Positions 8,052-62,806 of a DNA stretch of 64,000 nt are shown here, in pieces. The notes beneath the pieces were generated by a model, which made no database searches, was not told where the DNA came from, and worked only from the letters and a program-made list of their open reading frames with translations. The translations under genes were made by a program, and so were the position numbers. Within the stretch, counting starts at the first letter, position 1, and every line of letters starts with the position of its first letter. The stretch is from Oceanimonas sp. GK1 (GTDB lineage Bacteria; Pseudomonadota; Gammaproteobacteria; Enterobacterales; Aeromonadaceae): NCBI RefSeq assembly GCF_000243075.1, contig NC_016745.1, positions 2,745,001 to 2,809,000 on the forward strand, given 5' to 3'.

Positions 8052-8945
8052 ATGACATCATCCAAATCTTCGCCCCTGGGCCAGGTCAGCGATTTTGAGC
8101 TCAAGTTACTGCGCGTGTTCCGCACCGTGGCGGCCTGCGGCGGCTTTTCCGCCGCCGAGGTGGCGCTGGGCATCAGCCGGGCCGCCATCAGCATGCAGAT
8201 GGCGGATCTGGAAAAACGGCTGGGCGTCAAACTGTGCCAGCGCGGCCGGGCCGGCTTTGCCCTCACCGCCGAGGGCCGGCGCGTGCTGGAGGCCACTGAC
8301 CGGCTGTTTGGCGCCGTGGATCACTTTCGTGCCGAGATAAGCGATCTGCACCAGCGCCTGCAGGGCACGCTGGTCATCGGCATTACCGACAACCTGGTCA
8401 GCCACCCGGGCATGAAAATCACCCATGGCCTGGCGGCGCTCAAGGCCCGGGGACCGGAGGTGCACATCGATTTGCGCATGCAGCCTTCCGACGACATTGA
8501 AATCGGCGTGCTCGACGGCCGGCTTAACGTGGGGGTGATCCCCCAGGTACGGGATCTGCCGGGGCTGACCTATACGCCGCTGTATGAAGAAAGCGCCAGC
8601 CTCTATTGCGCCGATAACCATCCGCTGTTTGCCGACCCCGCCCCCGACGTTACCGGGCACGAAGTGGTGCAGCCCCGCTTTGCCCAGCCCGCCGAGGCCG
8701 CCGCCCTTTATGCCCGCCACTTTAGCGGCGCTCAGGCCAATGATCGGGAAGGCATCCTGTTTCTGGTACTGACCGGCTGTTACCTCGGCTACCTGCCGGA
8801 TCACTATGCCGCGCCCTGGATTCGGGCCGGCCGGCTGCGCGCCCTCACAGCGGGCTTTACCACCCGTTTTTGCGCCATTACCGCCCGCAGCCGCCGGCCC
8901 GGCCTGGTGCTGGAAACCTTTCTGGAAACGCTGGAGACATGTTAG
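8052..8945 (+). CDS. LysR-family transcriptional regulator
   Basis: 297 aa from ATG 8052. A start at 8031 would place the N-terminus almost on the operator and has no ribosome site. The N-terminal helix-turn-helix is visible (FELKLLRVF...GGFSAAEVALGISRAAISMQMADLE, about residues 15-60), followed by a periplasmic-binding-protein-like effector domain. It probably controls the divergent aminotransferase-mmsA operon; the effector may be beta-alanine or a pathway semialdehyde (inference). The TAG stop lies inside the first unit of the TTAGGGG array. Confidence 0.85.
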   Translation: MTSSKSSPLGQVSDFELKLLRVFRTVAACGGFSAAEVALGISRAAISMQMADLEKRLGVKLCQRGRAGFALTAEGRRVLEATDRLFGAVDHFRAEISDLHQRLQGTLVIGITDNLVSHPGMKITHGLAALKARGPEVHIDLRMQPSDDIEIGVLDGRLNVGVIPQVRDLPGLTYTPLYEESASLYCADNHPLFADPAPDVTGHEVVQPRFAQPAEAAALYARHFSGAQANDREGILFLVLTGCYLGYLPDHYAAPWIRAGRLRALTAGFTTRFCAITARSRRPGLVLETFLETLETC

Positions 8946-9004
8946 GGGTTAGGGGTTAGGGGTTAGGGGTTAGGGGTTAGGGGTTAGGGGTTAGGGGTTA
9001 GGGG
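8942..9004 (+). repeat. TTAGGGG heptad array, nine perfect units
   Basis: Nine uninterrupted copies of the 7-mer TTAGGGG. The first unit supplies the stop codon of the LysR gene. The plus strand has many runs of four G with 3-base loops, so G-quadruplex formation is predicted. A further partial unit (TTAGGG) follows the IS at 10266, so the IS landed inside the array. Confidence 0.95.
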
Positions 9005-9038
9005 TTATGGAGTGGCCCCGATAAAGTAGACACTTAAG

Positions 9039-13160: not shown

Positions 13161-13214
13161 CGTGAGGGGTGAAGGGTGAGGGGTGAGGTGAGGGGTTAGG
13201 GGAAAGGGAGGGGG
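13161..13214 (+). repeat. G-rich degenerate heptad tract (TGAGGGG/TGAAGGG/TTAGGGG)
   Basis: Directly after the Sco stop come units of mainly seven bases: TGAGGGG, TGAAGGG, TGAGGGG, TGAGG, TGAGGGG, TTAGGGG, then AAAGGGAGGGGG. Same class as the perfect array at 8942. G-quadruplex potential on the plus strand. Confidence 0.8.
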
Positions 13215-17146: not shown

Positions 17147-17147
17147 C

Positions 17148-17244
17148 GGAGCGCGGGCTGCCAGCCCGCAATTTAGCGCGAAGCGGCAACCCAAAACATC
17201 AAGCGCCCTGCCGGGCGCTATGCAGGCTAGCAGCCTGCGCTCCA
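17148..17244. repeat. TGGAGCGC palindromic repeat element, copy 1
   Basis: About 97 bases, starting GGAGCGCGGGCTGCC and ending GCAGCCTGCGCTCCA. Contains three internal stems: GCGGGCTG/CAGCCCGC, AGCGCCC/GGGCGCT and GCAGGCT/AGCCTGC. It fills the gap between convergent genes and probably acts as a terminator for both. Confidence 0.85.
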
Positions 17245-19890: not shown

Positions 19891-19916
19891 TTCCACGCTC
19901 TCCCCATTCCCCTATT

Positions 19917-19954
19917 CCCCCATTCCTCACTCCCCCATTCCTCACTCCCCCATT
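19917..19954. repeat. 15-base tandem repeat CCCCCATTCCTCACT
   Basis: Two perfect 15-base units plus a partial third (CCCCCATT), preceded by related CCCCATTCCCCTATT text from about 19900. The G-rich complement resembles the heptad tracts elsewhere in the window. Intergenic. Confidence 0.85.
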
Positions 19955-24180: not shown

Positions 24181-24242
24181 AGCGCCCTGCGGGCGCTGAT
24201 GCAGGCTGGCAGCCCCTGTTCAGGGACAAGACCTGCGCTCCA
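24181..24242. repeat. TGGAGCGC palindromic repeat element, partial copy 2
   Basis: Right half of the element: AGCGCCC/GGGCGCT stem, GCAGGCTGGCAGCC and the end GCGCTCCA. A segment CCCTGTTCAGGGACAAGA replaces part of the last stem; the same segment recurs in copy 4. Confidence 0.8.
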
Positions 24243-35916: not shown

Positions 35917-36215
35917 AACCTTCACAGCTCCGTGTGGAAGCGCCTGAATCTTATTCTAGTGAAGTTATGGAAATGCGGTGGAAAATCGAACGGTTGGGAG
36001 GGCCTGGGGGGATTGTGGTGGGGACTAAGAGCAGTGCAAGTTTTGGAGCACGGGTTGTGCATTCATTGGAGCGCGGGCTGCCAGCCCGCAATTTGGCGCG
36101 AAGCGGCAACCGAAAGCGAGCGCCCTGCGGGCGCTAATGCAGGCGAGCCGCCTGCGCTCCACAAGACCTGCGTTCCACGTGCGCCGAGTATGCCCTGGAA
36201 CGCGGTCTCAGTAAG
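35917..36215. other. Gap between lapB and the ligase gene
   Basis: 299 bases. Holds the likely lap operon promoter region at its left end and copy 3 of the TGGAGCGC repeat at 36067-36161. No ORF with coding character. Confidence 0.6.
36067..36161. repeat. TGGAGCGC palindromic repeat element, copy 3
   Basis: Complete 95-base copy, almost identical to copy 1 (TGGAGCGCGGGCTGCC at the left, CCGCCTGCGCTCCA at the right), including the GCGCGAAGCGGCAACC segment. Confidence 0.9.
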
Positions 36216-37579: not shown

Positions 37580-37664
37580 TTGGAGCAAGGTTAAGCAATG
37601 AGTTGCCGCTTCGCGGCAAATTGCAGGCAGACTGCCCCTATTCAGGGACAAGACCCGCGCTCCA
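37580..37664. repeat. TGGAGCGC palindromic repeat element, degenerate copy 4
   Basis: Starts TTGGAGCAAGG, contains GTTGCCGCTTCGCGGCAA and GCAGGCAGACTGCC, and ends CGCGCTCCA. Shares the TTCAGGGACAAGACC segment with copy 2. Confidence 0.75.
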
Positions 37665-39367: not shown

Positions 39368-39475
39368 TGGAGCGCAGGCGGCTCGCCTGCATTAGCGACC
39401 GCAAGGGCGCTCAAAAACCTTGCCGCTGCGCGCCAATAGCGACCAAGCTGGCCGCGACGCGCCACTCGCGCTCCA
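39368..39475. repeat. TGGAGCGC palindromic repeat element, copy 5
   Basis: Starts TGGAGCGCAGGCGGCTCG and ends ACTCGCGCTCCA, 108 bases. The inner stems are partly diverged (GCGACCGCAAGGGCGC). Confidence 0.8.
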
Positions 39476-40196: not shown

Positions 40197-40270
40197 CGTC
40201 ATTCCCGCGAAGGCGGGAATCCATGATTGCCGCTGCGCGCCAAATTGCGGGCAAGCTGCCCGCGCTCCAA
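40197..40270. repeat. REP hairpin joined to half of a TGGAGCGC element
   Basis: ATTCCCGCGAAGGCGGGAAT is a perfect REP-type palindrome. It is followed by a right half of the TGGAGCGC element (GCCGCTGCGCGCCAAATTG, GCGGGCAAGCTGCCCGC, GCGCTCCA). Confidence 0.8.
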
Positions 40271-40287: not shown

Positions 40288-40342
40288 TGGAGCGCAGGCT
40301 GCCAGCCTGCTTTAGTGCCCGCAAGGGCACTCAAAAACCTTA
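40288..40342. repeat. TGGAGCGC palindromic repeat element, left half (copy 6)
   Basis: TGGAGCGCAGGCTGCCAGCCTGC followed by AGTGCCCGCAAGGGCACT. The right half is missing, and the other half lies 18 bases to the left in reverse order, as if the element had been split. Confidence 0.75.
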
Positions 40343-41737: not shown

Positions 41738-41833
41738 TGGAGCGCAGGCTGCCAGCCTGCATTAGCGCCCACATGGGCGCTCAACGAAGGTTGCCGCTGC
41801 GCGGCAAAATGCGGGAAAGCTGCCCGCGCTCCA
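41738..41833. repeat. TGGAGCGC palindromic repeat element, copy 7
   Basis: Complete 96-base copy: TGGAGCGCAGGCTGCC left end, AGCGCCCACATGGGCGCT, TTGCCGCTGCGCGGCAA, and the right end CTGCCCGCGCTCCA. Inner stems are in the opposite order to copies 1 and 3. Confidence 0.9.
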
Positions 41834-41845
41834 ATGCCCTGCCCC

Positions 41846-41929
41846 TGTAGGCCCGGTTTTAACCGCGGCTGCAAGCGGGCAAACCATGCTGCATGTGGCA
41901 CCACTGCCCCGTTAAAACGGGGCCTACAA
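41846..41929. repeat. TGTAGGCCC inverted-repeat element
   Basis: TGTAGGCCCGGTTTTAACCG at the left and CCCCGTTAAAACGGGGCC ending TACA at the right pair as about 20-base imperfect inverted repeats around 40 bases. TGTAGGCCCC recurs at 61925 after rcsF, so this looks like a second small repeat family. Confidence 0.65.
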
Positions 41930-41954
41930 AAGCGTACGGAAGACCATAGCCCGT

Positions 41955-42020: not shown

Positions 42021-42064
42021 CAAGCGCCTGTCGGCGCTAATGCGGGCCAGCGGCCCGCGCTCCA
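42021..42064. repeat. TGGAGCGC palindromic repeat element, right half (copy 8)
   Basis: AAGCGCCTGTCGGCGCTAATG followed by GCGGGCCAGCGGCCCGC and GCTCCA: the two right-hand stems and the right end only. Confidence 0.75.
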
Positions 42065-61396: not shown

Positions 61397-61471
61397 TGGA
61401 GCACACTGCATTTCGCGTGTTTGGAAAGCGCCCTCACGGGCGCTATTGCAGGCTAGCAACCTACGCTCCAC
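61397..61471. repeat. TGGAGCGC palindromic repeat element, degenerate copy 9
   Basis: Starts CTGGAGCACAC and ends GCAGGCTAGCAACCTACGCTCCA, with AGCGCCCTCACGGGCGCT between. Lies in the operon leader region. Confidence 0.75.
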
Positions 61472-61920: not shown

Positions 61921-61924
61921 TTTT

Positions 61925-61950
61925 GTAGGCCCCAATTTATTGGGGCAAAG
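61925..61950. terminator. Hairpin after rcsF (TGTAGGCCCC motif)
   Basis: GCCCCAA-TTTA-TTGGGGC is a perfect 7-bp stem 9 bases after the rcsF stop; no T-run on the plus strand. The TGTAGGCCCC start is shared with the element at 41846. Confidence 0.55.
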
Positions 61951-61958
61951 AGTATTGT

Positions 61959-62079
61959 TGGAGCGCGGGTATTATCCCCGGATGGGGATAGCTTGCTCGC
62001 ATTTCACGTCATTCCCGTGAAGGCGGGAATCCATTGTTGCCGCTTCGCGCCAAATTGCAGGCTAGCAGCCTGCGCTCCA
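61959..62079. repeat. TGGAGCGC palindromic repeat element, copy 10, with REP inside
   Basis: Left end TTGGAGCGCGGG and right end GCAGCCTGCGCTCCA; the middle contains a REP palindrome (ATTCCCGTGAAGGCGGGAAT at 62010), which also occurs beside copy 6. Confidence 0.85.
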
Positions 62080-62101: not shown

Positions 62102-62806
62102 ATGACCAGTATCACGCTTGATCCCATCGGCATTATTCGCTCGCCCTATAAAGAGAAGTTTGCGGTGCCGCGCCAGCCGGGGCTGGTGAGCCGGGCCCGG
62201 GCAACCCTTGAGATGCTGCCGCCTTACAACGACCCCAGTGCCTTTCGGGGCCTTGGTGAATTCAGCCACTTATGGCTGGTGTTTGTGTTTCACCAGACCA
62301 TGGAACAGGGCTGGAAGCCGACCGTGCGCCCGCCCCGGTTGGGCGGCAACGAGCGGGTGGGTGTGTTTTCCACCCGCTCCACCTTTCGGCCCAACCCGCT
62401 GGGGCTCTCGGTGGTGGAGCTGCGCGACATGTGTAAAAGCGGCAACCGGGTATGGCTGGAGCTGGGCGGCGTGGATCTGGTCGACGGCACCCCCATCGTG
62501 GACATCAAACCCTATCTGCCTTGGGCCGACTCCGTGCCGCACGCCCATGGCGGCTTTGCCCCGGCGCCACCAGATCTGGGCATGGAAGTGATTTTCTCCC
62601 CCGAGGCAGAGCAAGCCTGTGCCCGCTCGGAAATCCCCGAGCTGAAGGAGTTCATTACCGAGGTACTGGTGCAGGATCCGCGCCCGGCTTATAAAAAAAC
62701 CGAGCAGAGCTGGCAGCAATATGGCGTGCGACTGTACGACTACAACGTGCGCTATGAGGTGTTTGGGCAACTGACCCGGGTATTGGCGCTGGAGCGTGGC
62801 GAGTAG
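62102..62806 (+). CDS. trmO: tRNA (adenine-N6)-methyltransferase TrmO (YaeB/TsaA)
   Basis: 234 aa. The YaeB-like barrel is evident: DPIGIIRSPYKEKFAVPRQP, GLGEFSHLWLVFVFH and GVFSTRSTFRPNPLGLSVVEL. Methylates t6A37 of tRNA-Thr using SAM. Full length, including the C-terminal domain (YNVRYEV). Confidence 0.93.
   Translation: MTSITLDPIGIIRSPYKEKFAVPRQPGLVSRARATLEMLPPYNDPSAFRGLGEFSHLWLVFVFHQTMEQGWKPTVRPPRLGGNERVGVFSTRSTFRPNPLGLSVVELRDMCKSGNRVWLELGGVDLVDGTPIVDIKPYLPWADSVPHAHGGFAPAPPDLGMEVIFSPEAEQACARSEIPELKEFITEVLVQDPRPAYKKTEQSWQQYGVRLYDYNVRYEVFGQLTRVLALERGE

Follow-up and report, generated by a model that had tools for sequence, protein, structure and literature searches.

The ~95-base palindromes of Oceanimonas sp. 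GK1 form a RAYT-type REP/BIME family with an unusual TGGAGC end

The window analysed here, a stretch of 64,000 nucleotides from the genome of Oceanimonas sp. GK1, contains about ten places at which palindromic elements of roughly 95 bases with similar ends recur between genes. The locus raises two questions: what kind of element these palindromes are, and which enzyme spread them. The original prediction, which was made from the letters of the window, left the choice between a MITE and a compound REP (BIME); the compound REP is borne out and the classical MITE is not. Here, we report that the palindromes are a RAYT-type REP/BIME family of paired REP hairpins with an unusual TGGAGC end (RAYT, REP-associated tyrosine transposase), and we consider which transposase is likely to have moved them.

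All of the places named in the prediction hold the element or half of it, and the half-copies that it described are the half elements of Table 1. The string TGGAGCGC occurs 23 times in the window, against a mean of 3.9 and a maximum of 9 in dinucleotide shuffles, although part of these occurrences are chance matches within genes. The pair at 17147–17244 lies between convergent genes, directly abutting one stop codon and ending 4 nt from the other, and the pair at 61959–62079 lies 5' of a trmO-like gene (62102–62806). REPs of the CGTC-tagged type (CGTCATTCCCGYGAAGGCGGGAATCC; PMC3733652), which differ in tag and stem, occur twice in the same window, each fused to a TGGAGC half element; the two 74-nt CGTC/TGGAGC chimeras share 89% identity, and the fusion may hence have been copied as a unit.

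Table 1. Family members and CGTC-tagged REP in the window, and REPs beside distant RAYT relatives in other genomes
Feature	Position or locus	Strand	Description
Full pair	17147..17244	.	G-type REP (+) then reverse-complement A-type REP; begins CGGAGC
Half element	24181..24242	-	A-type head, extended first stem (GTCCCTGAACAGGGGC insert)
Full pair	36067..36161	.	G(+)/A(-), 95 bp; cleanest copy of the window
Half element	37602..37664	-	Extended first stem, TTGCCGC second hairpin
Decayed pair	39368..39475	.	A-type REP (+), TTGCCGC hairpin remnant, terminal GCGCTCCA; weak fold
CGTC-tagged REP	40197..40222	+	CGTCATTCCCGCGAAGGCGGGAATCC; separate REP family, fused to half element 40226-40269
Half element	40226..40269	-	G-type
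Half element	40288..40331	+	A-type; head-to-head with 40226-40269, 18 nt between heads
Full pair	41738..41833	.	A(+)/G(-), 96 bp
Half element	42021..42064	-	First hairpin G-type, second hairpin AGCGCC (module exchanged)
Half element	61428..61470	-	A-type, head slightly decayed (TGGAGCGTAGGTTGC)
Interrupted pair	61959..62079	.	Extended G-type stem (+), A-type head (-); interrupted by CGTC-tagged REP at 62007-62032
REP beside RAYT relative	L190		TGGGAGC-GCCGGCG-TCC-CGCCGGC
REPs beside RAYT relative	L189		TGGACC-GCGGAGT-TGC-ACTCCGC with TGGGAGC-GGCGAGT-TGC-GCTCGCC
Alternating REPs beside RAYT relative	L188		TGGGAGC-GCCAAGC-ACCC-GCTTGGC / TGGGAAC-GCCGAGC-CCCA-GCTCGGC

Each unit is built from a TGGAGC head, a 7-bp stem closed by a GCY triloop (GCRGGCN-GCY-N'GCCYGC), 2–3 further bases and a second hairpin. 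Two subtypes are distinguished by the outer variable pair of the stem: this is G-C in the G subtype (GGGC..GCCC), whose second hairpin is mostly TTGCCGCnnnnGCGGCAA (TTGCCGC), and A-T in the A subtype (AGGC..GCCT), whose second hairpin is mostly AGCGCCnnnnGGCGCT (AGCGCC). The inner stems had been named correctly from the window, as GCGGGCTG/CAGCCCGC and GCAGGCT/AGCCTGC correspond to the two first-hairpin subtypes, and GCCGCTTCGCGGC and AGCGCCC/GGGCGCT to the two second-hairpin types. In some units the second hairpins are swapped between subtypes, for example at 42021–42064 of the window, and nine units of the genome carry an additional inner hairpin within the first stem. Bases preceding the head carry at most 0.21 bit of information in the own-genome units (position −1, A14 G16 T19 C10; position −2, G13 T19 A20 C7); since no base is conserved there, the head is not GT[AG]G.

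The stems covary. Position 9/21 is either A-T or G-C with zero mismatches, and the inner pair at position 13/17, at neither side of which the search pattern imposed a base, is T-A, A-T, G-C or C-G and forms a Watson–Crick pair in 63 of 64 own-genome units. Paired cells amount to 94.9%, compared with 84.1% in shuffles, and compensatory cells number 28, compared with 9.6, with none of 500 shuffles as high for either value; when the pairing is shifted by 1–3 columns, the paired cells drop to 29–44%. Single-strand folding of the pairs at 17148–17244, 36067–36161, 41738–41833 and 61959–62079 beats that of shuffles (z = −3.2 to −4.3), and that of the decayed pair at 39368–39475 is no better than shuffles (z = −1.0). 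No Rfam family matched the window at gathering score, and a plasmid search with the 95-bp element gave zero matches. None of the papers covered by a literature search links Oceanimonas to REP; by itself, a string as short as TGGAGCGC is uninformative as a query.

Over the whole genome (3.53 Mb), the 20-nt pattern TGGAGCGCRGGCNGCNNGCC gave 63 matches with at most one mismatch and 84 with at most two (reversed control, 2), and the 23-nt hairpin with at most one mismatch gave 61 copies (reversed-pattern control, 0). The genome-wide search proposed with the prediction therefore yields 61–63 copies. Most of these dispersed copies are intergenic, and several are no more than 60 nt away from the 3' end of a gene. 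All 11 inward-facing pairs, of 91–98 bp, and all seven head-to-head pairs combine a G-type with an A-type unit; a further 33 units are solo, and tandem arrays are found just 3' of proS (2,810,548–2,811,398) and at 2,812,699–2,812,928. In other genomes, the same hairpin search with at most one mismatch found 219 copies in G018, 130 in G016, 58 in G001, 52 in G002 and 37 in G009, with 1–15 in other congeners; at least one match was present in 11 of the 22 other genomes of the genus, two of these having a single match. Among other genera of the family 0 of 26 genomes held copies, and among other families of the order one of 31 did (G071, 12 copies). The copies are thus not confined to the window, and the TGGAGC heads are conserved across the genome and the genus as the prediction of common ends implied, except that the copy at 17147 begins with CGGAGC instead. 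An exact empty site was not found among the available congeners, as the divergence of their intergenic DNA prevents alignment around the inserts.

The genome-wide transposase search, which covered Y1 transposases, found a single one in this genome (2,520,082–2,520,411; 155 aa; motifs DHLH and YIIANP). A different RAYT of 202 aa is encoded by Oceanimonas marisflavi (O. marisflavi) between proS and a GGDEF/EAL gene, and Zobellella denitrificans (Z. denitrificans) has a RAYT of 192 aa with 67% identity to it. Both proteins match NF047646, 'REP-associated tyrosine transposase', above cut-off, as well as Y1_Tnp, and the O. marisflavi protein also matches PDB entry 4ER8, TnpA_REP. TGGAGC or CGGAGC REPs lie on either side of both genes, and the C-terminus of the O. 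marisflavi RAYT is encoded by a REP. A counterpart of these two RAYTs is missing in the Oceanimonas sp. GK1 genome, where the best match is the resident RAYT of the other group at 32% identity; the stretches of this genome that were searched for a RAYT remnant yielded none, the matches being short REP-encoded C-termini and that same other-group RAYT. The REP-associated transposase that the prediction recommended looking for is therefore present in two congeners with flanking copies, but its cognate form is missing here.

We consider it likely that the TGGAGC BIMEs were spread by a RAYT of the NHVH/WQ/YIH[RQ]NP type that is gone from this genome, and that the copies are probable relics near proS–patatin–tilS. 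Mobilization of the elements in trans by the resident RAYT (155 aa, DHLH/YIIANP) is improbable. Although it is the sole Y1 transposase of the genome, and TGGAGC has GGAGC in common with the GTAGGAGC heads of Pseudomonas and Xanthomonas REPs (PMC2817692), this RAYT is flanked by another REP family, which is GTAG-headed and has 21 genome matches, two of them beside the gene. Moreover, congeners with this type of RAYT can have zero TGGAGC copies (G004, G008 and G014), and G009 carries its 37 copies with no Y1 transposase match.

A classical MITE, in the sense of a non-autonomous element derived from a DDE insertion sequence and bounded by TGGAGCGC terminal inverted repeats, would show the complementary ends and the uniform length of the pairs, but it is hardly credible given that target duplications, a check proposed with the prediction, do not exceed chance (2 of 11 pairs with at least 3 nt, 0.9 expected, p = 0.22), that single halves, head-to-head pairs and tandem arrays are so frequent, and that the two ends are different covarying hairpins. 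A complete DDE element with such ends was not seen either, in an analysis whose genome-wide transposase search covered Y1 enzymes. Very unlikely too is the view that selection maintains the hairpins as sites of cellular use (transcription ends, mRNA 3' stability or gyrase/IHF binding), with mobility long past and secondary. Their mostly intergenic positions, several close to gene 3' ends, speak in favour of it, as does the compensatory change that maintains paired stems; however, the distribution is patchy across the genus, from 0 to 219 copies per genome, and inspection of the sequence 3' of the hairpins found no T-run typical of intrinsic terminators. Nor are convergent gaps clearly favoured: the suggested preference for convergent gene ends did not emerge from 15 loci, which comprise three convergent, eight codirectional and four divergent gaps in a 204-kb region with rough gene calls (background convergent gaps, 17 of 117). 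A cellular role could coexist with spread by a RAYT.

If a RAYT did spread the elements, a REP-associated tyrosine (HUH/Y1) transposase would act on single-stranded DNA to spread heterotypic inverted REP pairs. It would recognise the TGGAGC head with the neighbouring 7-bp hairpin and, by analogy with work on other RAYTs, from which this cutting mechanism is taken, would cut beside the hairpin and join the element elsewhere without a target duplication. The responsible enzyme is most likely the RAYT that O. marisflavi and Z. denitrificans have kept inside TGGAGC BIME arrays, judging from sequence, and it was probably this RAYT that moved the copies. As the present genome is without a cognate RAYT, its copies are probably relics, which would now change by mutation and local recombination only. 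The population thus appears to be orphaned, with copies that persist and a transposase that is gone; presumably the gene was lost here, a view preferred to one in which a transient or relocated copy acted. Three copy-rich genomes are also without this RAYT (G016, 130 copies; G001, 58; G009, 37), so its presence does not simply track copy number. They suggest either frequent RAYT loss within the genus or a gene that is gained and lost again through transfer, although draft assemblies could hide a RAYT gene in some copy-rich congeners.

A profile of both RAYTs found relatives at E ≤ 1e-20 in three of 369 genomes drawn from the class. Beside all three genes lie REPs of the same build, which are TGG(G)A-headed and are without the usual GT[AG]G (Table 1). 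One common pattern has 150 copies in G399 and 89 in G442, against 19 and 10 for the controls; the counts cover these two genomes, as the G346 sequence does not conform to the pattern. When all RAYTs of this analysis are placed in one tree, the two RAYTs and their three relatives group together (94/92), with the long-branched G003 also falling among these five and an inner order that is not firm. The motifs of the Z. denitrificans protein (NHVH, IWQ and YIHQNP) fit the set of subclass 2.6 (group 5), NH[LIV]H, WQ and YIH[QN]NP, from which those of O. marisflavi (YIHRNP), G442 (YIHANP), G346 (YIWQNP) and G399 (LWM and YIHRNP) depart by one or two residues.

By most defining features, the elements are RAYT-mobilised REPs in BIME pairs. 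They are many dispersed GC-rich palindromes that form inverted pairs and arrays of subtypes, and O. marisflavi and Z. denitrificans, though not the genome studied here, have a rayt gene flanked by the same REP. A GT[AG]G head at the foot of the hairpin is absent, its place being taken by TGGAGC; GT[AG]G is reportedly missing from subclasses 2.6 and 3 as well (PMC6006769), so the missing head limits the subclass and not REP membership. The comparison system is that of E. coli, in which yafM is TnpA_REP, a group 2 RAYT, with REP/BIME units Y, Z1 and Z2. Both systems have short hairpins of two subtypes, heterotypic inverted pairs, arrays and a RAYT flanked by inverted REPs, and the merging of the 3' end of the O. 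marisflavi rayt gene into a REP resembles an arrangement reported for the group 2 system (PMC2817692). Nevertheless, there are clear differences from the E. coli REP/BIME: the head is TGGAGC in place of GT[AG]G, the 7-bp stem is perfect and unbulged and ends in a 3-nt loop, each REP is followed by a second hairpin, and this genome lacks the RAYT. The TnpA_REP of subclass 2.6 (Bertels group 5; PMC6006769) shares REPs without GT[AG]G and a low gene copy number, and its motifs NHVH, WQ and YIH[QN]NP are resembled by those of the cognate RAYTs, the likeness being one of motifs and not of position in a tree with reference sequences; that subclass is mainly known from Bacteroidetes with weak atypical structures (PMC6006769), whereas the present family belongs to Gammaproteobacteria and has strong hairpins in tens to hundreds of copies. 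GTAG-1 REPs of Pseudomonas and Xanthomonas (subclass 2.5, group 3 RAYT) likewise have GGAGC between head and stem, a short stem and a short loop, but the GT of GT[AG]G is not conserved here and the RAYT comes from another clade. Owing to the absence of GT[AG]G, which subclasses 2.6 and 3 also lack, and to the 2.6-like motifs of the RAYTs, we class the family as a variant of REP/RAYT, at a level above the subclass.

The copies are clustered around proS. The 63 sites merge into 36 loci; 14 of these are no farther than 100 kb from 2.811 Mb, the position of proS, compared with 2.0 expected. Because the region was picked after the data had been seen, a scan statistic was used, in which not one of 5,000 random placements reached this number of loci in any 170 kb (p about 0.0002). 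Within 50 kb of proS, loci are also enriched in G009 (5), G001 (5), G002 (6) and G016 (5), with 0.7–1.1 expected and p values of 0.0001–0.004 in tests that share ancestry and are not independent; in G005, one of ten copies is near proS. The order trmO, proS, patatin, tilS, accA is common to most congeners where it is readable, and arrays or pairs lie between these genes in the Oceanimonas sp. GK1 genome, G016, G018 and G009. The O. marisflavi proS is inverted relative to congeners with a readable proS–trmO orientation, the RAYT lies 5' of it, and patatin, the neighbour of proS in most congeners, is on another contig; thus, the claim for the RAYT is limited to the 'same region'. Given this gene order, the array 3' of proS in the present genome is not taken to be exactly orthologous to the site of the RAYT in O. 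marisflavi. The inverted O. marisflavi proS (6185–9108 of L164, G002:C55:18000-34000) has TGGAGC REPs at both gene ends, and its inversion was possibly REP-mediated. In Marinomonas, REPs are concentrated near their RAYT (PMC8266576). We infer that the RAYT once sat in the proS region here, and put it no more firmly because the two species have their RAYTs at different loci and because of the rearrangement of the O. marisflavi site; this region would then be the ancestral home.

By current understanding, RAYTs recognise their REPs largely through a GT[AG]G guide beside the hairpin, and for GTAG variants the cut dinucleotide is reported to shift with the head (PMC8266576). The clade of five RAYTs described here, two of them from named species and three from other families of the class, goes with a different head and the same REP geometry of 7 bp and 3–4 nt, and such sets of RAYT and REP are a natural test of guide–transposase co-evolution. 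Within the genus, moreover, some genomes have both the RAYT and copies, some have copies only and some have neither, which allows direct tests of the fate of a REP population after transposase loss and of the spread of copies near their source. Tentatively, and with somewhat less than even confidence, TGG(G)A may be added to GTAG and CGTC as a third type of REP head, recognised by a rare RAYT clade of its own through a different guide; in this genus the REP population would have outlived its transposase, and the density of relics would mark the former RAYT site.

Several minor features were observed. In G016 and G002, NHVH/YIELNP-type Y1 proteins of 230–238 aa (L095 and L096) are encoded 3' of the same conserved membrane-protein gene; GGGGTCGGAGTCAATT-type repeats adjoin them, and the proteins may be of the 'TIRYT' type. 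Hairpins of the TTGTAGGCCC type at 41843–41931 and 61923–61947 of the window are probably GTAG-tagged REPs of another family, with a frequency not above chance by the short pattern used. Short imperfect tandem repeats are present at 13162–13213 (GTGAGGG) and 19902–19954 (CCCCATTCCTCACTC, 3.5 copies), and an error-free array of 9.6 copies of the heptamer GTTAGGG lies at an ORF end at 8941–9007.
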